Notes under the pieces: generated by a model | Database searches by the model: none | What the model was told of the DNA's origin: nothing | The model's input: the letters and a program-made list of their open reading frames with translations, nothing else | Shown here: in pieces, positions 12,734 through 45,838 of the stretch | Position numbering within the stretch: the first letter of the stretch is position 1 | Layout: each line of letters opens with the position of its first letter | Made by a program: the position numbers and the translations under genes | Assembly: GCA_017631315.1 (NCBI GenBank) | Contig: JAGBTN010000007.1 | Span: forward strand, 124,001-188,000 | Direction: 5' to 3' | Source: Bacteroidaceae bacterium | Lineage (GTDB): Bacteria > Bacteroidota > Bacteroidia > Bacteroidales > Bacteroidaceae | Length of the DNA stretch: 64,000 nt

Positions 12734-12851
12734 CTTTTTGTCTCATGCCCAACAATGCCCCACCCTCTTGCAGGTTGCTTCGGAAGACAATGAATGCTAT
12801 ATATTATAATGTGTAAAAGGAGTCGAACAAACACCCCCTGCAAGGGAGAAA

Positions 12852-12983
12852 AACATCTACTGCCTAATTGGCCGACAAGGCAGTAGATGTTGCCCGAAAA
12901 GGTTAACCTATTTGGCCAATTAGGCAGTAGATGTTTTCCGATGCTGCACAGCACGTGCAGTTGCACTACACGTGCGTCTGGCT
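12852..12983. repeat. 22-bp palindromic unit array (homologous to the one at 32405)
   Basis: Four consecutive 22-bp units start at 12852, 12874, 12896 and 12918, each ending in GCC, CCC or TCC. Unit 1 holds AACATCTACTGCC, units 2 and 4 hold its reverse complement, and unit 3 holds GGTTAACC at 12901-12908. Weaker units with CACGTGCAG and ACACGTGC cores continue at 12940 and 12962, running into the end of trmB (stop at 12966-12968). Unit 1 can pair with unit 2 or, for a full 22 bp, with the end of unit 3 plus unit 4. Confidence 0.88.
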
Positions 12984-36972: not shown

Positions 36973-38010
36973 TCAGATGAGTTGCATGCCTGCCGCTTTG
37001 CACTCTTGCCTCATGCTGTCGGGCCAGATGCTGGCTTGCGTTTCGCCGATATGTGCTTTTTGCAAAAGCACCATGCACAGACGGCTCTGGCCAATGCCAC
37101 CGCCTATGGTCAGGGGCAAAGTGTCGCCAAGCAGACGCTGGTGGAAATAGAGTTCCTTACGCTCTTCCTTGCCTTGCAGGGCAAGTTGTCGCAAGAGAGC
37201 CTCCTTGTCCACACGAATACCCATTGAACTGAGTTCGATGCTGCGTCCGAGCAGTGGATACCACACGAGCAGGTCGCCGTTGAGTCCGACGAAGCCACTC
37301 TCGTTCTGTGTGCTCCAGTCGTCATAGTCCGGGGCACGCTGGTCGTGCTGTTCTCCGTTGCTGAGTTTGCCGCCTATGCCGATGATGAATACGGCTCCGT
37401 ACTTTTGGCAAATGAGGTCCTCGCGCTCCTTGGCGGTCTTGTCGGGATACATTTGCAGCAACTGCTCGCTATGGATGAAGTGAACGTCTTCGGGCAAGAA
37501 GGGTTTCAGTTGCGGATAGGTTTCGCAGACGTAGAACTCGGTGCGCAGGATGGCGCTGTATATCTTCTGTACGATGCGACGGAGGTAAGCCTCGTTGCGA
37601 TTCTCGGCAAGCAGTACACGCTCCCAGTCCCACTGGTCGACGTAGAGACTGTGCAGATTGTCCAGTTCCTCGTCGGCACGAATGGCGTTCATGTCCGTAA
37701 CGATGCCGAAGCCCGGTTCTGTCTTGTATTCTGCCAGTGTAAGGCGTTTCCACTTTGCCAGCGAATGAACCACTTCGGCAACAGAATCGCCCATGTCTTT
37801 TATAGGAAAACAAACCGGACGCTCAGTGCCGCTGAGGTCGTCGTTGATGCCAAGTCCGCGAAGCACAAAAAGAGGGGCCGTAACGCGCCTCAGCCTGAGT
37901 TCCGTCGAGAGACTGCTCAGGAAGAAATCCTTTATCTTCTTGATTGCCTGCTCCGTCTGGTTCAAGTCCAACAATGCAGTATAACCGTCTGGTTTCAAGA
38001 GTTTGCTCAT
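36973..38010 (-). CDS. asnA: aspartate--ammonia ligase
   Basis: A 345-residue cytosolic enzyme making asparagine from aspartate, ammonia and ATP. It resembles class II aminoacyl-tRNA synthetase cores; recognisable segments include LRLRRVTAPLFVL, FPIKDMGDSVAEVVHSLAKWKR, VDQWDWE and the C-terminal LPLTIGGGIGQSRLCM. Length is normal. Own promoter at 38033-38040. Confidence 0.95.
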   Translation of the reverse strand: MSKLLKPDGYTALLDLNQTEQAIKKIKDFFLSSLSTELRLRRVTAPLFVLRGLGINDDLSGTERPVCFPIKDMGDSVAEVVHSLAKWKRLTLAEYKTEPGFGIVTDMNAIRADEELDNLHSLYVDQWDWERVLLAENRNEAYLRRIVQKIYSAILRTEFYVCETYPQLKPFLPEDVHFIHSEQLLQMYPDKTAKEREDLICQKYGAVFIIGIGGKLSNGEQHDQRAPDYDDWSTQNESGFVGLNGDLLVWYPLLGRSIELSSMGIRVDKEALLRQLALQGKEERKELYFHQRLLGDTLPLTIGGGIGQSRLCMVLLQKAHIGETQASIWPDSMRQECKAAGMQLI

Positions 38011-38032
38011 ATTGTTTTCTACATTTTGCCCG

Positions 38033-38040
38033 CAAAATTA
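38033..38040 (-). promoter_or_regulatory. -7 promoter element of asnA
   Basis: CAAAATTA on the plus strand is TAATTTTG on the minus strand, 22 bp before the start codon. Confidence 0.7.
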
Positions 38041-38089
38041 GTATGTTTATTTCTATTTGCAAACAAAAATAGCAAGAAAAGTTACATTA

Positions 38090-38209
38090 TTAGTCCTCGA
38101 AGTCGAATCGGTCTAACAATTTGCCACATTTTGAGCAGAAGACCTCGTGCCTGTAAATGGTGTTTCCGCAGTCGTTGCAGTGATAAGTCCGTACTTCTTT
38201 CTCTGCCAT
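38090..38209 (-). CDS. 39-residue zinc-ribbon protein
   Basis: A very small protein with two CxxC pairs, CNDCGNTIYRHEVFCSKCG, forming a zinc ribbon, and an acidic tail DRFDFED. The ATG at 38209 follows a strong promoter at 38253-38260 by about 45 bp, which supports it as a real gene. Function unknown. Confidence 0.72.
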   Translation of the reverse strand: MAEKEVRTYHCNDCGNTIYRHEVFCSKCGKLLDRFDFED

Positions 38210-38252
38210 ATTTTCGTCGTTTATGGAGTTGGTAATGTTATGTATCTCTGTG

Positions 38253-38260
38253 CAAAGATA
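38253..38260 (-). promoter_or_regulatory. -7 promoter element of the zinc-ribbon gene
   Basis: CAAAGATA on the plus strand is TATCTTTG on the minus strand. Confidence 0.68.
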
Positions 38261-38307
38261 AGAGAAAAAGTTGAGATTGCAAACGCAAAAATCAGGAAAA
38301 TACAGCA

Positions 38308-38415
38308 CTGCAGTCCACTTGCCCCAACGGACGCGTCCGTTTGGGCAACTACACGTGTGAAGTTGACGAAGTCCTGCAGAGTAAATTGCAAACTTCTCTG
38401 CAGAAGTCGGACAAC
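38308..38415. repeat. palindromic cores at about 22-bp spacing (CTGCAG/ACGCGT/ACACGTGT)
   Basis: Small palindromes are centred at 38310.5 (CTGCAG), 38333.5 (GGACGCGTCC), 38354.5 (ACACGTGT), 38376.5 (CTGCAG) and 38400.5 (CTGCAG): spacings 23, 21, 22 and 24. This resembles the exact 22-bp arrays elsewhere but is looser and has different cores. Confidence 0.55.
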
Positions 38416-38471
38416 TTCTTTAGAGGGGCTATTTTTTACCTGCTTTTTACGCCTAATTCTAAACTTTTTCG

Positions 38472-38479
38472 TAACTTTG
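38472..38479 (+). promoter_or_regulatory. -7 promoter element giving a 300-nt leader
   Basis: TAACTTTG would start a transcript near 38484, placing the 120-nt structured element inside the 5' leader of the gene at 38784. Confidence 0.55.
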
Positions 38480-38565
38480 TCGTCGGAAGGGTAACTATAG
38501 CCTCAGCGGAGGAGTCCTTTCATATCTTATGGAAATATTAACAAGCGTTTGCTGTTATTCGGAAT

Positions 38566-38685
38566 TGCTTCAAGAACCTAGGAAATTCAAGAACTAATAT
38601 GCCGAAAGAATAAGTCGCAAACGTCTATGCTATGCATGGACGTGACTTATCTGGTGTATTTAGGCTTCCTAGGGCCGTTGAAGCA
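38566..38685 (+). ncRNA. 120-nt structured leader element, copy 1
   Basis: Nested perfect pairings: TGCTTCAA (38566-38573) with TTGAAGCA (38678-38685); CCTAGGAA (38577-38584) with TTCCTAGG (38666-38673); CTAATATGCC (38594-38603) with GGTGTATTTAG (38653-38663, one bulge and wobbles); ATAAGTC with GACTTAT (38610-38616, 38644-38650); ACGTCTATGC (38621-38630) with GCATGGACGT (38634-38643) closed by a TAT triloop. Same length and layout as the element at 43502-43621 with different helix sequences. Confidence 0.6.
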
Positions 38686-38783
38686 TGGATGATGAATGTC
38701 CATGCTTTGTTTGTGTCCTACAGCCTACCGCCGAAGATAAGCATACGCATGTGGTAAAAATAATAAACACAAAATATACACCT

Positions 38784-39356
38784 ATGAAAAAATTATTTTT
38801 ATTATTATTCTCTTTTGTAGCATTAAACGCAAATGCTCAAGACATTCTTGTCCGACAAGGAGGAGGTTCTGAAAATGTCAAAGTCCTCGAAGTAACAGAC
38901 TATGAAGTAAAGTATACTAAAAATGGTAGCGACTCTATTTTTACAGAACCTTGTTCTAACATATTTTATATAAGATATCAAGGAAATGGTAGTTTGCAAC
39001 AATTTAACTACAGCTCAAACTCTAGAAATACAAATAGAAGTCAAGCATCACCTAAATACTGGGAGATTGCCGAAATGAAGGCAGAACCACAATGGCATCT
39101 TTATTCTGCTGGCCAAGCAATGAAAAAAAGTGCATCGTGTTTGGCCTGGGGGTTGGGTGCTTCTTGTGTTGGAGGAGCATTATGTGCAATTGGTGCAACA
39201 TCAGACAACACAAATGCTCAAACGGGATTAATCGTTACTGGTTCTATTATAGCCAGCACCATACCTCTTGCATGTCTTATTGCAAGTATACACTTTCACT
39301 ATAAAGCAGGGCGTGAACTACGTTTATCTGCCGGTAAAGTAGTGTATCAATTTTAG
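38784..39356 (+). CDS. exported protein of unknown function
   Basis: A 190-residue protein with a signal peptide (KKLFLLLFSFVALNANAQ). The N-terminal half (QDILVRQGGGSENVKVLEVTDYEVKYTKNGSDSIF) looks beta-rich and resembles short domains often found at the start of Bacteroidetes surface proteins. The C-terminal half has two hydrophobic stretches (CLAWGLGASCVGGALCAIGA and GLIVTGSIIASTIPLACLIASI), so it may sit in a membrane. AT-rich compared with neighbours. The ATG at 38784 is chosen for the signal peptide. It follows a long structured leader. Confidence 0.7.
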   Translation: MKKLFLLLFSFVALNANAQDILVRQGGGSENVKVLEVTDYEVKYTKNGSDSIFTEPCSNIFYIRYQGNGSLQQFNYSSNSRNTNRSQASPKYWEIAEMKAEPQWHLYSAGQAMKKSASCLAWGLGASCVGGALCAIGATSDNTNAQTGLIVTGSIIASTIPLACLIASIHFHYKAGRELRLSAGKVVYQF

Positions 39357-39373
39357 AGTTCCAGCATTCCCCT

Positions 39374-41260
39374 CTACCCTATTTCGCTGAGTTCGAGCCA
39401 GCGCATGGACTTCTCGTCGAGAAGGTCGTTCACAATGGGCAGACGTTTGCTGAGGTCGATGATTTCCTGTGTGCAGAGGGCTCCGCTGCTGAGTGCAGCC
39501 TCGATGTCTGCCTTTTCGTTCTCCAGGTCGTCTATCTCTTTCCCTAAAGCCTCGAATTCCTGCTTCTCGCGGAAAGACATTTTGCGCTTTCTGCCATTGA
39601 CCGTTGAAGATTGACCATTGACCACTTCGGCTGGACGTTTTGGAGAAGTACTCTCATTCTTCTCCCCTCTCTTCGGAGAGGGGTCGGGGGTGAGGCTTCT
39701 GTATTGCGTGTAATTCCCTGGGAAGTCCTTAACGATGCCATTGCCCTTGAAGACGAAAAGATGGTCCACCACCTTGTCCATGAAGTAGCGGTCGTGGCTG
39801 ATGATAATGACACACCCATGGAAGTCCTGCAAGTACTGTTCCAATATCTGGAGAGAAGTGATGTCGAGGTCGTTGGTCGGCTCGTCGAGGACAAGGAAGT
39901 TTGGGCTTTGCATAAGAATGGTACAGAGATAAAGACGTCGCTTCTCTCCTCCCGAAAGTTTATAGATGTAGTTCTGCTGTTGCTGCGGCGAGAACATGAA
40001 ATGTTGCAGGAACTGCATGGCCGACAGTTTTCTGCCACCGCCTAAATCGACATACTCTGCCGTCTTGCGGACAGCATCGATAACCTTCATCTGCTCGTCG
40101 AACTGCATTCCGTCCTGACCATAATAGCCAAAGCGTACCGTTTCGCCAACGACAAAACGACCGCTGTCGGGTTTCACCAAACCGAGCAACATCTTGACGA
40201 AAGTGCTCTTGCCTGTCCCGTTGTTCCCGACGATGCCCAACTTCTCGTAACGTGAGAAGTTATAATAGAAATCCTTCAACAGAACGAGGTCGCCGTATGC
40301 CTTGCTGACATACTCGGCCTCGAATATCTTACTGCCAATGTAAGTCGATTTCATTTCGAGCCTTACCTGCTGTTCCTCTATGCGACGGTGTGCCTGCTTC
40401 TCCAGTTCGTAGAAGGCCTCTTCGCGATACCTTGCCTTATGGCCGCGGGCCTGTGGCATGCGTCGCATCCATTCGAGTTCGGTCCTGTAGAGGTTCGAGG
40501 CTCTTGCAATCTCTGCGCGTGCCACTTCCTGCCTGAGGGCACGTTGCTCCAGATAGTAAGCATAGTTGCCATGATAAGTATAGACTGTTTCATCGGCCAA
40601 CTCTATGATAACGGAACAAACACGGTCGAGGAAGTAACGGTCGTGCGTCACCATGAGCAGCGTGATGTTTGATCGGGAAAGATAATTCTCGAGCCACTCT
40701 ATCATCTGCAAGTCGAGATGGTTGGTCGGCTCGTCGAGAATGAGCAAGTCCGGCTCCATGATGAGTGTATTGGCAAGTGCCACGCGCTTCAACTGTCCGC
40801 CGGAAAGTTGCGAAAGTAGTTTGTTGAACTCCGTTATGTAGAGTTGCGAAAGAATGGTTTGGGCACGGCGTTCATAGTCCCATGCTTTCTGCTGCTCCAT
40901 GCGGTCGAGAATGTCCTGCAAGCCCTCCTGGCTCTCCGATGCCATACATGTCTCGTACTCACGAATAAGATTCGTTGTTTCGTTACCATGCCAGAAACAT
41001 GCCTCGATGACTGTCAAATCAAGAGGATAGTCGGGGGTCTGCTCCAGATAACCGATGCGAAGGTCGTTGCGAAAGACAACCTGCCCTTCGTCAGCCTGAT
41101 CCTTGCCGCCAAGAATGTTCAAGAGCGTACTCTTGCCCGTTCCGTTTTGCGCAATGAGTCCTACCTTCTGCCCCTCGCACACGCCGAAACTGAGGTTGCT
41201 GAAAAGCGTCTTGTCACCAACACTTCGCGTTAAATTCTGTACCTGCAAATATGACACCAT
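39374..41260 (-). CDS. ABC-F family ATPase (Uup-like) with repeat-derived insertion
   Basis: A 628-residue soluble protein with two ABC cassettes: Walker A loops GLIAQNGTGKST and GIVGNNGTGKST, signatures LSGGQLKRVALA and LSGGEKRRLYLC, Walker B motifs LLILDEPTNHLD and FLVLDEPTNDLD. A C-terminal coiled coil (FREKQEFEALGKEIDDLENEKADIEAAL) suggests the Uup branch, which acts on ribosomes or DNA structures. Between cassette 2 and the coiled coil, LTPDPSPKRGE and NGQSSTVNG are encoded by repeat-type DNA. The ATG at 41260 (MVSYLQVQNL) is used because a promoter lies just upstream. Confidence 0.93.
   Translation of the reverse strand: MVSYLQVQNLTRSVGDKTLFSNLSFGVCEGQKVGLIAQNGTGKSTLLNILGGKDQADEGQVVFRNDLRIGYLEQTPDYPLDLTVIEACFWHGNETTNLIREYETCMASESQEGLQDILDRMEQQKAWDYERRAQTILSQLYITEFNKLLSQLSGGQLKRVALANTLIMEPDLLILDEPTNHLDLQMIEWLENYLSRSNITLLMVTHDRYFLDRVCSVIIELADETVYTYHGNYAYYLEQRALRQEVARAEIARASNLYRTELEWMRRMPQARGHKARYREEAFYELEKQAHRRIEEQQVRLEMKSTYIGSKIFEAEYVSKAYGDLVLLKDFYYNFSRYEKLGIVGNNGTGKSTFVKMLLGLVKPDSGRFVVGETVRFGYYGQDGMQFDEQMKVIDAVRKTAEYVDLGGGRKLSAMQFLQHFMFSPQQQQNYIYKLSGGEKRRLYLCTILMQSPNFLVLDEPTNDLDITSLQILEQYLQDFHGCVIIISHDRYFMDKVVDHLFVFKGNGIVKDFPGNYTQYRSLTPDPSPKRGEKNESTSPKRPAEVVNGQSSTVNGRKRKMSFREKQEFEALGKEIDDLENEKADIEAALSSGALCTQEIIDLSKRLPIVNDLLDEKSMRWLELSEIG
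39664..39683. repeat. palindrome with TTCG loop inside the ABC-F gene
   Basis: CCCCTCTC (39664-39671), TTCG, GAGAGGGG (39676-39683): a perfect 8-bp stem with a stable tetraloop, flanked by GGTCGGGGGTGAGG. On the coding strand this gives TPDPSPKRGE, a string known from intergenic-type repeats inserted into genes of many bacteria. Confidence 0.75.
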
Positions 41261-41274
41261 GACATTTTTTCCTG

Positions 41275-41282
41275 CAAATGTA
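41275..41282 (-). promoter_or_regulatory. -7 promoter element of the ABC-F gene
   Basis: CAAATGTA on the plus strand is TACATTTG on the minus strand, 14 bp before the start codon. Confidence 0.6.
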
Positions 41283-41345
41283 CATAAAAGCAACGAAAAA
41301 ACGTCATTTTGATTTTAATAATTTTGCACATTCAATTATTTGCAG

Positions 41346-41353
41346 TATCTTTG
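41346..41353 (+). promoter_or_regulatory. -7 promoter element of rho
   Basis: TATCTTTG starts a leader of about 118 nt. Within it, GCTT-A-CGCTC (41386-41395) pairs with GAGCG-C-AAGC (41402-41411), a stem-loop that could take part in rho control. Confidence 0.7.
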
Positions 41354-41475
41354 CAGAAACAATTATCAAAGATTTGACTGACGGGGCTTACGCTCCCAAG
41401 AGAGCGCAAGCAATATTTCCGAACAGTCCTACATTTTTCCCTTACACATTACTTATTATTAAGCATACATAGATT

Positions 41476-43314
41476 ATGCACAAAAGCGAATTAGAAGGAA
41501 TGACACTCCCTGAGCTTACTGCGCTTGCAAAAAAGCTTGGAGCGGAGCTGAGCGAGGACCAGACTACCCTCATCTACAACATACTGGATGCACAATCTCT
41601 GCAAGCCTCAATTGAGCCGGCTGCAAAGAAACGCGGACGCAAGCCAAAGGCAAAAGACGAAGCAGAAGCCTCAAACAAACTTCCCCAAACAGAAGAAAAG
41701 GCTCAAAGCGAGAATATCAGCAAAGAACCGAACATTGCAACCAGCGAGACACCAGTAGAAGAAACTCCTGCGCCCAAAAAGCGCGGACGCAAATCGAAAA
41801 CAGAAAAGGACGCAGAGGCTCAAGCAGAACAAACCGACAATGCCGAACCAAAGGCAGAAGCAGCGCCCGAGAAAAAGCGTCGCAAACGCATCGGTGAGGC
41901 AAAAACAGAAACAGCCGAAGCAACAGCCAAGCAGACTACTCAAGAAGAAGCAGTAAACGAGAGCCAAACACTTGGTGATAATAGTCAAAATACTCCTGCA
42001 ACAGAAGAGCAAGACTTCATCATCACACAGGACATCCCTTCCGTAGAAGCACAAATAGAACAACTCAAAGCATCACTTCAGTCTGCCACAAAAGACGAAA
42101 GTGACGACAAGACTATTCATTCAAACGATGTTGCCGAAGATATCGAAACAAAATCTCCAAAAACAAAACGTCAAACAGAGGAGATAAAGTTCAACTTTGG
42201 CGAGAACATCCGTGGAGAAGGCGTGCTCGAAGTTATGCCCGAAGGATTTGGTTTCCTGCGAAGCAGCGACTACAATTACTTGAGCAGCCCCGACGACATC
42301 TATGTCACTCAACAAATGGTGAAACACTTTGGTCTGAAGACTGGCGACGTTGTGGAAGGTCCTGTTCGTCCACCAATGCACGGCGAGAAGTTCTTCCCGC
42401 TGATTCGCGTAGAAAAGATAAACGGATGCAATCCCGAAACAGTACGCGACCGCAGCCCCTTCGAGAACCTAACACCCCTCTTCCCCGACGAAAAGTTCAA
42501 ACTCTGCTCTGGCAAGAACGACTCTCTCTCTGCTCGAGTTGTCGATCTCTTCGCTCCTATCGGCAAAGGTCAGCGCGCTCTGATTGTGGCACAGCCTAAG
42601 ACTGGTAAAACCCTCCTGATGAAAGACATCGCCAATGCCATCGCTGCTAATCACCCCGAAGCATATCTCATGATGCTCCTCATCGACGAACGTCCCGAGG
42701 AGGTTACCGATATGGCTCGAACCGTCAAAGCAGAAGTCATTGCCAGCACCTTCGACGAGCCTGCCGAACGTCACGTCAAGATAGCAGGCATCGTTCTGGA
42801 AAAAGCAAAGCGCATGGTAGAATGCGGACACGATGTAGTCATCTTCCTCGACTCCATCACACGTCTTGCACGTGCCTATAACACGGTATCACCTGCCAGT
42901 GGCAAAGTGCTCAGTGGTGGTGTTGATGCCAACGCATTGCACAAGCCAAAGCGTTTCTTCGGTGCTGCCCGTAACATTGAAAACGGCGGTAGCCTGACCA
43001 TCATCGCAACTGCACTTATCGACACCGGCAGCAAGATGGACGAAGTCATCTTCGAAGAGTTCAAGGGAACAGGCAACATGGAACTGCAACTCGACCGCAT
43101 GCTCTCCAACAAGCGTATCTTCCCTGCCGTCAACATTGTAGCCAGCAGCACTCGTCGCGACGACCTGCTTCAGGACAAGATGACACTCGACCGTATGTGG
43201 ATTCTGCGCAAGTTCCTTGCCGACATGACACCCATCGAAGCAATGAACGAAGTGAAGTCCCGTCTCGAGAACACCGACAACAACGAGGAGTTCCTCCTCA
43301 GCATGAACTCATAA
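41476..43314 (+). CDS. rho: transcription termination factor Rho with long disordered insertion
   Basis: A 612-residue hexameric RNA-dependent ATPase that ends transcription. Residues 1-45 are the Rho N-terminal helical domain ([20 protein letters not shown]). Residues about 50-235 are a low-complexity K/E/A/T/Q-rich stretch with repeated [20 protein letters not shown] and [10 protein letters not shown] blocks, predicted disordered. The RNA-binding fold follows ([21 protein letters not shown]) and then the ATPase core: Walker [11 protein letters not shown], the [10 protein letters not shown] loop and [12 protein letters not shown]. The catalytic core is normal; the insertion is typical of Bacteroidetes Rho. 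Confidence 0.96.
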
Positions 43315-43501
43315 ACATATTGTAAACGCAACAAACGATATTATAGCACTATTAAGATATTAATCCCATAACCGACAAGCCTATGAAGTAAAACATCAAA
43401 GCACACCGACGAGAAATTAACATCCAATTATTCACTCGGCGATGCTAGCTCTTGACTTCTTTTAAAATTTAATTATAACCTGGACTTTACGTCCTTGTTC
43501 T

Positions 43502-43621
43502 CGTCCCAAGAAACCGCCAATTTCAAAACATATGAGAGCAAGCGACAAAGGTTCATGTCCTATGGGCGTGAACTGTTTTCGCTTTTCTATATGTAGGGTG
43601 CTTGGCGGTACCTTGGGGACG
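43502..43621 (+). ncRNA. 120-nt structured element, copy 2
   Basis: Nested pairings: CGTCCCAAG (43502-43510) with CTTGGGGACG (43612-43621, one bulge); ACCGCCAA (43513-43520) with TTGGCGGT (43602-43609); ACATAT (43528-43533) with ATATGT (43589-43594); AAGCG (43540-43544) with CGCTT (43580-43584); GGTTCATGTCC (43550-43560) with GGGCGTGAACT (43564-43574, wobbles) closed by a TAT triloop at 43561-43563. It ends 42 nt before the BspA-like gene. No clear promoter precedes it, so it may be read from rho or from an atypical promoter. Confidence 0.6.
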
Positions 43622-43663
43622 GAAAAGCAGCAAAGCAGTTTTCGCCCTTTTCTTATTATTCAA

Positions 43664-45838
43664 ATGAAACAAAATTACATTAGACGCATCCTTTTGTGTC
43701 TTTGCTTGCTTGCAAGCCTCAATGCTTTTGCCTATGATGCACTGATTGACGGCATTTGTTACACGTTTTCTGGAGACAACGCAGAGGTGACATCTGGTAG
43801 TTATTATCGTGGCACTATCGTTATTCCTTCTTCTGTTACCTATGAAGGAAAAAAATATAGCGTAACAAATATAGGAAGCTCTGCATTCCGTAATTGCGTA
43901 GAGCTAACTTCTGTCACCATTCCCAACTCTGTGACTAGCATCGGAAACCATGCATTCTACAAATGCTCAGGCCTTACCTCTGTCACCATCCCTAACTCAG
44001 TAACGAGCATAGTGGACTATGCATTCAGAGATTGCACAAGACTTACTTCAATAACTATCCCCGACTCCGTGACAAACATAGGAAACGGTGCATTCGAAGG
44101 TTGCATAGAACTAAAAACAATTGTGGTAGAAGACACTAATCCCTTCTTCGACTCACGCAATAACTGCAATGCGATTATCGAAAGTGCGACAAACACATTG
44201 ATTGTCGGATGCAAAAATACCGTCATCCCCAATGATGTGTTAAGCATAGGTGAAGGTGCCTTTTGCGGGTGCTACTATTTAACTTCACTCAATATCCCAG
44301 AGGGTGTAACGAGTATTGAAGATGGTGCTTTCCAGGAGTGCGAAAGTTTAATCTCCATTACCATTCCCAAGACAGTAATAAACATTGGAGACTATGTCTT
44401 TTGCGATTGCATTGCTCTGACATCCATTAAAGTTGAAGCCGGCAATACAAATTATGACTCTCGCAATAACTGCAATGCCATCATTGAGACTGCTACAAAT
44501 ACGCTGCTTTCCGGTTGTAAAAATACAACTGTCCCCAATAGCATAACGAGTATTAAATGGGGTGCTTTTTCTGGTTGCTCTGAGTTAAACGCTATCAGTA
44601 TTCCCAACAGTGTAACAAGCATTGGCGAAGATGCCTTTTATGGTTGTACAAACTTGACCGCTATCACGATTCCCAGCAGTGTAACAAGCATCGGCGAAGC
44701 TGCCTTTAGCAAATGTTCAGGCTTGAGTACTATAATTATTCCAAATAGTATTATAGTTCTCGAGTCTTCAACTTTTAGTGGTTGCTCTAATTTGAAAACT
44801 GTCACTATTGGAAATAGTGTTAAAAGTATTGAATCAAATGCATTCAAGGGTTGTATGAGCATTACTTCTATTGTCATCCCGAATAGTGTAACAAGCATTG
44901 GTAGTAATGCCTTTGCGGATTGCACAGATATCGTCACTGTTACCATAGGTACTGGAGTTCAATCAATAGATAGCTATGCCTTCACCGGTGTATCTCCCAA
45001 GAAAGTCATTTGGCTACCAAAAACACAACCAAGTGGTTATTCTAATTCAAAATTAAAAGGAATCGTCAACTATGTGCCCAACGAATCATATTCTGGTCTT
45101 GATAATGTAGTGATTTATCCGTATTTGAACTCTATGTTTGAGGTAGATGGCGTAAAATACGTTCCTGTCAATCCTTCCCAACGCACTTGCGATGCTATTG
45201 ATTGTACATACAACGAATCGGCGAAGAACATCTCTGTTGGAGAATCCGTTACAAACAGAGGCGTCAACCTGACAATCAGGCAAGCAGCTCCGTACTTATG
45301 TTATGGGAACACATTTATGGAGAATGTAAAACTTGATTTTAAGGGCAATATCAACAACTCTGCTTTTGGTGGCTGTACAGACCTTAAGATTGTTACAATA
45401 GGCGATAACGTAACGGGTATCGGTGATTATGCTTTCTCCGGATGCAGCAGTCTGGACTATTTCCAATTTGGCAAAAGTGTAGCAACGATTGGGAAGGAAG
45501 CTTTCTCCGGCTGTGCGGCAATAACAGAACTCATCAGCTGCGCCGAGACTCCACCAGTTTGTGGCACCGATGCGCTGAACGATATTGATAAGTGGGTTTG
45601 TATGCTTAAAGTTCCAGAAGGACATGTTGCCACATATCAAGATGCCGCACAATGGAACGAATTCTTCTTCATGGAAGCATTCGACCCCGACAGAATAAAG
45701 AGTATTGAAGCAGAACCATCTTCTGCAAACGAGGTGGGACAATTCGACTTGCAAGGTCGTCGCATTGATAAACTCGCGAAAGGCATCAGCATCATCCGCC
45801 ACTCAGACGGAACAACAAGAAAGGTTCTCATCAAGTAA
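43664..45838 (+). CDS. BspA-like leucine-rich-repeat surface protein
   Basis: A 724-residue exported protein with a signal peptide (IRRILLCLCLLASLNAFA). It is built from LRR_5 (BspA/TpLRR) repeats of about 23 residues, for example IPNSVTSIGNHAFYKCSGLTSVT, from about residue 55 to 630. Such proteins in oral and gut Bacteroidetes bind host proteins. The last 30 residues (QFDLQGRRIDKLAKGISIIRHSDGTTRKVLIK in part) resemble a short C-terminal sorting or anchoring tail seen in Prevotella exported proteins. The ATG at 43664 is chosen for the signal peptide. Composition is nearer average than the C-rich rho gene. Confidence 0.9.
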   Translation: MKQNYIRRILLCLCLLASLNAFAYDALIDGICYTFSGDNAEVTSGSYYRGTIVIPSSVTYEGKKYSVTNIGSSAFRNCVELTSVTIPNSVTSIGNHAFYKCSGLTSVTIPNSVTSIVDYAFRDCTRLTSITIPDSVTNIGNGAFEGCIELKTIVVEDTNPFFDSRNNCNAIIESATNTLIVGCKNTVIPNDVLSIGEGAFCGCYYLTSLNIPEGVTSIEDGAFQECESLISITIPKTVINIGDYVFCDCIALTSIKVEAGNTNYDSRNNCNAIIETATNTLLSGCKNTTVPNSITSIKWGAFSGCSELNAISIPNSVTSIGEDAFYGCTNLTAITIPSSVTSIGEAAFSKCSGLSTIIIPNSIIVLESSTFSGCSNLKTVTIGNSVKSIESNAFKGCMSITSIVIPNSVTSIGSNAFADCTDIVTVTIGTGVQSIDSYAFTGVSPKKVIWLPKTQPSGYSNSKLKGIVNYVPNESYSGLDNVVIYPYLNSMFEVDGVKYVPVNPSQRTCDAIDCTYNESAKNISVGESVTNRGVNLTIRQAAPYLCYGNTFMENVKLDFKGNINNSAFGGCTDLKIVTIGDNVTGIGDYAFSGCSSLDYFQFGKSVATIGKEAFSGCAAITELISCAETPPVCGTDALNDIDKWVCMLKVPEGHVATYQDAAQWNEFFFMEAFDPDRIKSIEAEPSSANEVGQFDLQGRRIDKLAKGISIIRHSDGTTRKVLIK

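Follow-up and report, generated by a model that had tools for sequence, protein, structure and literature searches.

A leader RNA family of Bacteroidota with two alternative folds and a probable role in transcription attenuation

Introduction

Two elements of exactly 120 nt, denoted here e1 and e2, lie in the window (the whole 64,000-nucleotide stretch of Bacteroidaceae DNA analysed here) and share a long helical fold with different helix sequences. An earlier note, made from the letters of the window alone, suggested that they are either an undescribed cis-regulatory RNA or a structured mobile element. This raises the questions of whether the two elements are related, how far the unit extends and what its fold might do. 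In gut and rumen communities, Bacteroidota rank among the major members, and the literature surveyed has few cis-regulatory RNAs of theirs on record.

Results

Two elements of one leader family

The fold described in the earlier note, with its outer helices, second 8-bp helix and UAU-capped inner stem, is present in both elements (Table 1). On the + strand, the 120-nt stretch of e1 folds at -48.8 kcal/mol (z -6.6) and that of e2 at -57.5 kcal/mol (z -6.9); in neither case was any of 200 dinucleotide shuffles as good. These rods are real, but the unit is larger than was thought: they are the cores of leaders of about 173 nt. The length of 120 nt common to e1 and e2 is accidental, intact relatives covering 165-188 nt of the model in some searches and 151-234 nt in others.

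Table 1. Features of the e1 and e2 leaders and the genes that follow them (window coordinates)
Feature	Position	Strand	Details
e1 whole leader	38540..38714	+	5' hairpin segment, rod and U-run tail; matched by R2 and R1
e1 rod	38566..38685	+	helices 38566-38584/38666-38685, 38594-38603/38653-38663, 38607-38616/38644-38652; tip 38621-38630/38634-38643
e1 alternative 5' hairpin	38545..38624	+	38545-38552 with 38617-38624, 38553-38562 with 38602-38612; fold of the 5' half
e1 alternative 3' hairpin, terminator candidate	38634..38713	+	38634-38643 with 38696-38705, then TTTGTTTG at 38706-38713; fold of the 3' half
Gene after e1	38784..39356	+	190-aa ORF (inner ATG), signal-peptide-like start
e2 whole leader	43479..43651	+	R1 140.3 bits, R2 135.1 bits
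e2 rod	43502..43621	+	helices 43502-43520/43602-43621, 43528-43545/43579-43594; tip 43550-43560/43564-43574
e2 P2 5' strand, ACCGCCAA	43513..43520	+	rod partner 43602-43609; loop region of hairpin x in the two-hairpin fold
e2 P2 3' strand, TTGGCGGT	43602..43609	+	region of hairpin y in the two-hairpin fold
e2 alternative 5' hairpin	43481..43555	+	43481-43504 with 43532-43555; inner hairpin x 43510-43513/43521-43524
e2 alternative 3' hairpin, predicted terminator	43564..43657	+	43564-43588 with 43621-43647; U-rich tract from 43648
Gene after e2	43664..45838	+	724-aa BspA-type leucine-rich-repeat protein, signal-peptide-like start; Pfam LRR_5, E 5e-113

The covariance model R1, built from 13 sequences including e2, detected e1 (12.1 bits at 38540-38712) only when filters were switched off, and for this reason a second model, R2, was made that included e2 and excluded e1. 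R2 matches e1 in register and over its full length (38540-38710; 37.5 bits, E 1e-5 in 64 kb, both strands), which identifies the weakly shared bases of the two elements as homologous. After e1, e2 and the mirror match of e2, the next best R2 match in the window scores 14.1 bits, and a search of 150 kb of E. coli with the model gave a top score of 15.3 bits. By sequence and predicted structure, e1 and e2 are members of one leader family.

Matches were found in 62 of 139 genomes of the genus-level sample at E ≤ 0.001, weak and mirror matches being counted, and, at E ≤ 1e-6, in 128/399, 48/295 and 38/296 genomes of the family-, order- and phylum-level samples, respectively. Within its own genome, blastn of e1 and e2 yielded only self-matches and weak short ones, the best of which (L008) shows no folding advantage over shuffles, whichever strand is taken. 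The L019, L020 and L021 matches were dismissed as chance; opposite-strand matches of about 40-51 bits at strong copies arise as mirror images from the palindrome; and the architecture is absent from L258, the sole pattern match on a viral contig. The covariance search proposed in the earlier note thus yielded further copies with many compensatory changes, and the accompanying comparison with Rfam matched no family: there were no matches in the window at gathering scores, none in 38000-44200 at E ≤ 5 and, for 16 loci at E ≤ 1, only two miRNA matches, both to L235 and far under the gathering scores. The Rfam scans were also the sole test of four other candidates, integron attC sites, retron RNA, 6S RNA and T-boxes, and gave no match. 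The leaders apparently constitute a family of Bacteroidetes-type bacteria with no earlier description.

Two mutually exclusive folds

The rod, about 40-57 bp long in the leaders, is the most strongly covarying structure among those measured. Its alignment contains 815 double-change cells compared with 217 in shuffles, and double changes occur in 40 of the 46 pairs (29.5 in shuffles), so that pairing is kept amid sequence change as the earlier note had supposed; in helix 3 (P2), 99.2% of the cells are paired. Among 73 sequences, G-U cells outnumber A-C cells in the rod 257 to 23, which points to the sense RNA as the selected strand. The mirror rows L229 + and L247 + remained in A6, in R2 and in the rod double-change count, and were left out of the gene-context count, the 91-leader set and the set used for U-runs and prefix folding.

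The earlier note saw this one fold and missed a second that excludes it. Four segments of the leader, A', B', C' and D', pair either as A'-D' plus B'-C', which gives the long rod, or as A'-B' plus C'-D', which gives tandem hairpins. RNAalifold on the rod-fitted alignment A5 (73 sequences) missed the two hairpins, giving the halves -15.9, largely through the tip stem, compared with -50.4 for the rod, and the halves of 81 of the 91 leaders were therefore aligned separately and fitted to neither structure, the ten most divergent leaders (L126-L133, L136, L139) being left out. Only from these separately aligned halves do the hairpins emerge: the 5' hairpin is 97.7% paired with 36 double-change cells (7.9 in shuffles), and the terminator hairpin 93.3% paired with 113 (25.4 in shuffles). 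None of 500 shuffles matched any of the five covariation measures for the rod, the 5' hairpin and the terminator. The two-hairpin energy was also compared with controls that keep every rod pair, and gave a mean z of -5.5 over 75 leaders, with values below -3 in 74 of them; for this test and for A5, duplicates and the truncated or chimeric L122, L125, L134, L135 and L138 were removed. Taken together, the covariation and the rod-preserving controls indicate that both alternative folds are under selection.

An attenuator is expected to have a mutually exclusive fold in which a hairpin is directly followed by a U-run, and this is what the C'-D' hairpin presents: in 91 of 99 leaders at least 5 of the 8 nt after the stem are U, against a background of 5.2% of 900 8-mers, and the hairpin thus has the form of an intrinsic terminator. 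For hairpin y, a generic test showed no enrichment (4.79 vs 4.79 in shuffles); its closing bases co-change in the 42 regex matches (T-A 34, C-G 7, C-A 1), 39 of 81 leaders falling outside the regex. Folding of successive prefixes of 99 leaders favours the rod by at least 5 kcal from a point about 74 nt short of the complete terminator stem, with an advantage that peaks at 26.8 kcal en route and amounts to 9.4 kcal at full length (all medians), so that termination would need kinetics or a factor.

The MFE fold of the 173-nt leader of e2 is the two-hairpin fold. In e1, the two-hairpin energy gives a z of -2.2 relative to the rod-preserving controls, 2 of 40 being equally good, and the tail can form a competing local terminator-like hairpin (38679-38709) that leaves most of the rod intact; e1 is the weaker case for a two-state switch. 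Conserved positions are mostly those paired in one or both folds, plus the P2 strands, and in the variable helices, P1 and P3, each copy matches its own other half. That each strand serves in both folds accounts for which parts are able to vary.

Downstream genes and reuse of the leader

As the earlier note had it, e1 and e2 both precede genes for exported proteins, the 190-aa ORF at 38784, for which no family was found in Pfam or NCBIfam, and the 724-aa leucine-rich-repeat protein at 43664. A position just upstream of a co-oriented gene, as expected of an attenuator, is general in the family: a co-oriented ORF lies within 200 nt on the sense side of 109 of 116 copies and on the antisense side of 22. 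By a simple rule made for this analysis, 86 of the 116 copies are followed by an ORF with a signal-peptide-like start, compared with 14 of 53 control ORFs called mechanically from both strands of the window; in the signal-like cases, the start codon is located 11-77 nt past the tail (5th-95th percentile). Other copies are found upstream of SusC, HTH-like or DNA-methylase genes. Best scores for the Bacteroidetes promoter motif TAnnTTTG in 110 leader flanks were no better than in shuffles, and the transcription start is therefore not fixed by a canonical motif.

Of 12 pairs of leaders that are at least 90% alike (L122, L125, L134, L135, L138 and L265 being removed from this comparison), 7 stand before proteins that are not homologous to each other, which indicates that the module has been reused before different genes. 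The 60 nt upstream are at least 80% alike in 7 of 12 pairs examined and 55-73% alike in the other five, and similarity drops soon after the tail. This much of the suggested structured mobile element stands; no direct repeats of at least 8 nt were found at the borders of e1 and e2. With L221 as a single query, one plasmid record and no phage record matched.

Discussion

A predicted attenuator and its alternatives

We consider it fairly likely that the leaders are transcription attenuators in which the rod corresponds to read-through and the hairpin pair to termination. The cis-regulatory part of the original suggestion is upheld by the compensatory copies, the lack of an Rfam match, the largely fixed gene orientation and the sense-strand G-U excess. 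In the nascent transcript, the A'-B' hairpin would form first; the emerging 3' strand would then invade it, nucleated by complementary apical regions that include the conserved CCGCCAA/UUGGCGG loops. Successful invasion would produce the rod, sequester C' and allow the gene to be read, whereas slow or blocked invasion would let C'-D' form and stop transcription before the gene. The module recurs before unrelated genes of a single genome, and a metabolite specific to one gene is for that reason a less likely input than a global one, be it elongation speed or an RNA-binding protein or RNA by which the common loop is held.

The main alternative readings each account for part of these observations. 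The rod could be a post-transcriptional element that protects the mRNA, serves as an RNase III site or tunes translation, the U-run being incidental; the rod is indeed the more stable full-length fold on median and owns the strongest covariation. However, such an element predicts neither independent covariation of C'-D', nor a two-hairpin excess over rod-preserving controls, nor a U-run right after the C'-D' stem in 91 of 99 leaders, and we regard it as unlikely. The terminated leader could itself be a trans-acting small RNA, with control of the downstream gene secondary: the 5' hairpin and the terminator would release a compact RNA of about 170 nt, the P2 loop sequence is common to many copies, and paralogous small-RNA families are present in Bacteroides, FopS being an example (PMC11697453). 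Yet most copies closely precede a co-oriented gene, and P1 and P3 match the other half of their own copy, so that this role seems a little less probable again.

A mobile DNA module, either MITE-like or a promoter cassette, in which the inverted repeats serve DNA transactions, would fit the nearly identical leaders before non-homologous proteins and the likeness that extends 60 nt upstream and ends soon past the tail. We hold this to be very improbable, given that the predominance of G-U over A-C cells indicates selection on the sense RNA, that gene orientation is largely fixed, that the borders of e1 and e2 lack direct repeats of at least 8 nt and that the L221 query brought up a single plasmid record and no phage record.

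For the attenuator reading, a broader version can be offered as a speculation that we would not yet favour: a reusable "promoter plus bistable RNA" module found throughout the phylum Bacteroidota. Its tandem hairpins would serve as a kinetic switch, with loop kissing as the first step of a strand exchange in cis that ends in the rod of about 50 bp. A single global input, either the elongation rate or a loop-binding factor common to the copies, would set the amounts of many surface proteins, of SusC transporters and of some DNA methylases, perhaps with differences between individual cells. A multicopy attenuator that serves many unrelated genes for exported proteins would add a new layer of regulation to the surface of these bacteria. 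It is unusual for an RNA that compensatory change supports both alternative folds, as is the case across the leaders analysed.

Relation to known systems

Two palindromic candidates are reported in PMC8040213: HMP2_4205, which measures 132 bp and lies near TPR genes, and HMP2_1032, which measures 106 bp and lies near TonB. By description, the sole basis of this comparison, they resemble the leaders in being palindromic elements of Bacteroidetes with predicted terminators and a similar size. They might be partial views of the same family, the two-state mechanism being absent from the portion of the PMC8040213 account consulted. FopS and GibS (PMC11697453) are likewise paralogous RNAs that Bacteroidaceae carry in multiple copies; they have a terminator and a link to surface proteins. 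According to the same paper, FopS consists of a single-stranded 5' seed and one terminator hairpin, acts in trans and has been deposited in Rfam. The leaders do not appear to belong to FopS: they have no Rfam match, and their 5' segment is paired in both folds.

The complementary loops of about 7 nt resemble those of the ColE1 RNAI/RNAII kissing hairpins, where they may likewise start strand exchange, with the difference that both hairpins of the leaders reside in one transcript, in which kissing is a predicted step. Riboswitches with terminator expression platforms similarly combine a 5' leader, mutually exclusive folds and a terminator, whereas no conserved unpaired ligand pocket is evident in the leaders. 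In leaders of the trp/his type, segment 2 pairs with either 1 or 3, and its pairing with 1 leaves 3 free to form, with 4, an intrinsic terminator ahead of the gene. The e1/e2 family displays the same four-segment competition and 3-4 terminator, but differs in that segments 1 and 4, the outer two, pair as well and give the rod, and in that the leader precedes unrelated genes.

Extent and distribution of the leader family

The two 120-nt stretches, here denoted e1 and e2, fold as the earlier note described, with z-scores of -6.6 (e1) and -6.9 (e2) relative to shuffled sequence. Used as blastn queries, they gave no other convincing match in their own genome, the assembly that holds the window. 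The e2 query hit 15 places at E<=0.1 in 60 other genomes of the genus: 12 are relatives with 71-78% identity, drawn from 6 genomes, and the remaining 3 are chance matches. In relatives aligned with their flanks, conservation begins about 20 nt 5' of the 120-nt fold (the rod), at a GAGC..GCTC segment, and stops at the tail, e.g., TTCACGCC-TTTTTT. By these sequence limits, the rod is the core of a leader about 170 nt long. An exported-protein gene is located shortly downstream of every aligned relative except L013, a locus whose contig ends too soon.

Coordinates of the leaders, other structures and alternating segments
Feature	Position (strand)	Sequence	Partner in rod	Partner in alternative fold
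e1 leader	38540-38714 (+)			
e1 rod	38566-38685			
e1 local hairpin	38679-38709			
e2 leader	43479-43651 (+)			
e2 rod	43502-43621			
Strongest local fold	12831-12960 (-)	repeated ACATCTACTGCC		
Segment A'		CTTGTTCTC-type	D'	B'
Segment B'		GAGARCAAGC	C'	A'
Segment C'		tip 3' arm + GCTTGTTT	B'	D'
Segment D'		GAGAATAAGC + tail TTCACGCC	A'	C'

The further copies that the earlier note proposed to seek with a covariance model are indeed present across Bacteroidales and the phylum, with strong covariation in the rod. Model R1, built from 13 sequences, matched 62 of 139 genomes of the genus at E<=0.001 (counting weak and mirror matches, the latter being opposite-strand matches of a palindromic copy), 128 of 399 genomes of the family at E<=1e-6, spread over 20 of 30 genera, and 48 of 295 genomes of the order at E<=1e-6, the E-values of both models being based on a short calibration. 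For model R2, built from 93 rows with e1 left out, matches at E<=1e-6 occurred in 38 of 296 genomes of the phylum; at E<=1e-5, 18 of 31 relatives had matches, with at most 11 places per genome, a few of them mirrors. Within the window, R2 scored e2 at 135 bits, its mirror at 51 bits and e1 at 37.5 bits (E 1e-5; full length, in register), with nothing else above 14.1 bits; the best score on 150 kb of E. coli, used as a control, was 15.3 bits. Because a model that lacks e1 scores it so far above this background, and in register, e1 and e2 can be assigned to one family despite having little sequence in common. The own genome contains 10 R2 places including the e2 mirror, and near-identical copies may be hidden or merged in MAG assemblies (as in loci L134 and L135). 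Scanning GTDB genomes with a strict pattern yielded 81 stretches; the 80 listed belong by title to Prevotella, Prevotellaceae, Bacteroidaceae or Bacteroidales, with one from Phocaeicola, and ruminant origin is common among them.

Scanned for local structure, the window folds most strongly (-64.9 kcal/mol per 130 nt) in a separate run of repeated segments with a T-run, apparently a strong terminator.

Two competing folds

Folded over its full length, the e2 leader reaches its energy minimum as two tandem hairpins, A'-B' and C'-D', and not as the rod; a U-run lies directly 3' of the C'-D' pairing, a candidate terminator. Both folds are visible in intact copies, among the foldings listed. Compared with controls that retain all rod base pairs and shuffle only their order, two-hairpin energies are far lower (mean z -5.5; 74 of 75 leaders below -3). 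When each half of the leader was aligned alone (81 of 91 leaders), the consensus folds were the two hairpins, with double changes at 10 of 14 pairs in the 5' hairpin and 13 of 16 in the terminator hairpin, and with 97.7% and 93.3% of cells paired, respectively, versus 36-59% in slid controls; none of five measures was matched in any of 500 shuffles. RNAalifold applied to the rod-fitted alignment did not recover the two hairpins, and the strongest covariation is that of the rod. Directly 3' of the C'-D' stem, 91 of 99 leaders carry a U-run, compared with 5.2% of 900 background 8-mers. Rod cells of 73 sequences contain 257 G-U and 23 A-C combinations, which indicates that selection acts on the sense RNA. 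Comparative evidence thus indicates that both folds are under selection. Segments A' to D' are conserved because each has two partners, whereas helices P1 and P3, paired only in the rod, are free to vary with compensation; this two-fold design accounts for the preserved pairing and changed helix sequence first noticed in e1 and e2. Since the alternative fold of e1 is only modestly above control (z -2.2), and its tail forms, in addition to the C'-D' pairing, a local hairpin that by its predicted structure could terminate with most of the rod left intact, e1 is the weakest member of the family.

The 5' strand of helix P2, mostly CCGCCAA, lies within hairpin x, a small structure whose stems are of the GAATA/TATTC type (4.67 on average vs 3.48 in shuffles). 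The 3' strand, UUGGCGG, lies within hairpin y, whose closing bases co-change from GGT..ACC to GGC..GCC (T-A 34, C-G 7, C-A 1 among the 42 of 81 matching a regular expression); a generic enrichment test for y gave 4.79 vs 4.79 in shuffles. The x and y loops are complementary in sequence, so that kissing between them is possible. In locus L276, P2 has the same sequence as in e1, CCTAGGAA/TTCCTAGG.

Several copies are unusual. Leaders L264 and L266 of the own genome span about 213 nt, with an extra 40 nt or so folding separately inside the 5' half; an exported-protein gene follows L266. L134 and L135, near contig ends in genome G020, are identical and have mismatched 5' and 3' halves, so that only the two-hairpin fold is possible; either paralogues have recombined or copies were merged during assembly. 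L138 is a half leader that lacks most of the 3' half, retains the tail and U-run, and precedes a lipoprotein-like gene.

Predicted mechanism

In prefix folding along the transcript, which excludes kinetics (medians of 99 leaders), the rod's advantage over the hairpin pair reaches 5 kcal about 74 nt short of the completed terminator; it rises to as much as 26.8 kcal in intermediate prefixes and is 9.4 at full length. Given these energies, the rod would be expected to correspond to read-through, provided there is time for strand exchange, and the hairpin pair to termination, which would occur if the 5' hairpin were kept from opening or if transcription outpaced strand exchange. Homology, the two folds, the U-run and the gene context can be read from the sequences; the folding order, kissing nucleation, termination in the cell and the nature of the input we infer.

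Downstream genes and modularity

Of 116 copies, 109 are followed on the sense side by an ORF of 60 aa or more that begins no further than 200 nt away; on the opposite side, 22 of the 116 have one. Signal-peptide-like starts, scored by a simple rule devised for this analysis, were found downstream of 86 of 116 copies compared with 14 of 53 control ORFs, with a median tail-to-ATG distance of 22.5 nt in the signal-like cases. The 87 scanned downstream proteins include 21 with a BspA-type LRR_5 match, two with a Peptidase_C10 match, and one each of EcoRI-type adenine methylase and C-5 cytosine methylase (L247 and L267, matched by starts). DNA methylase genes lie directly behind L247 and behind L267, an own-genome leader, and by eye a methylase-like protein starts directly after L243. 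Eight own-genome places beyond the e2 mirror were inspected: a gene for a protein with a signal-peptide or lipoprotein-like start lies behind 5 of them and a cytosine methylase gene behind one; neither gene type is clear downstream of L260 and L265. Behind seven copies (L241, L251, L252, L255, L256, L257 and L114) lie small genes, Cro/HTH-like by eye, that encode about 71-90 aa with the pattern HIGKxIKxELxxQGRxxTWxAxQ; most of these copies are from other families. For the three proteins scanned, Pfam and NCBIfam gave matches below cut-off or none. Seven copies from other orders of the class (L269-L275) are located about 200-380 nt upstream of genes that by eye resemble TonB-linked receptors. 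The one protein scanned, that of L269, is SusC/RagA (TIGR04056, E 2e-95, below the whole-length cut-off, the gene being cut by the locus edge), with a SusC_RagA_signa match above its cut-off.

In 7 of 12 pairs of leaders with 90% or more identity, measured on a permissive global alignment, the proteins that follow are non-homologous. Among 12 pairs examined further, likeness over the 60 nt upstream is 80% or more in 7 and 55-73% in the other 5, and it drops soon past the tail. These comparisons indicate that some modules, at the least, made up of promoter and leader recur ahead of different genes. No direct repeats of at least 8 nt were found at the borders of e1 or e2, and a search with L221 hit a single plasmid record and nothing among phage records. 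The leader promoter was not located in the upstream flanks. In one clade (G013, G014, G020 and other genomes), a box around CCCGTTCGCAGTC about 60 nt 5' of the leaders is a possible promoter or regulator site.

Relationship to known RNAs

The comparison with Rfam suggested in the earlier note returned no family matching e1, e2 or the further leader loci scanned, and a full-text search of open-licence papers did not find the element. Neither Bacteroid- nor Prevotella nor Porphyromonas occurs in the text of PMC2965389. The portion of PMC9723704 considered here reports 64 structured 5' regions in Flavobacterium, some of them conserved, and does not describe the leader element. RNAs of B. thetaiotaomicron are described in the corresponding portions of PMC7366714, PMC11697453 and PMC10861873. 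The Bacteroidetes motifs listed in PMC2864571 include Bacteroides-2 and GUCCY-hairpin, for which no Rfam number is shown there. Palindromic Bacteroidetes candidates with predicted terminators are listed in part of PMC8040213 and, compared by description only, may overlap with the leader family.
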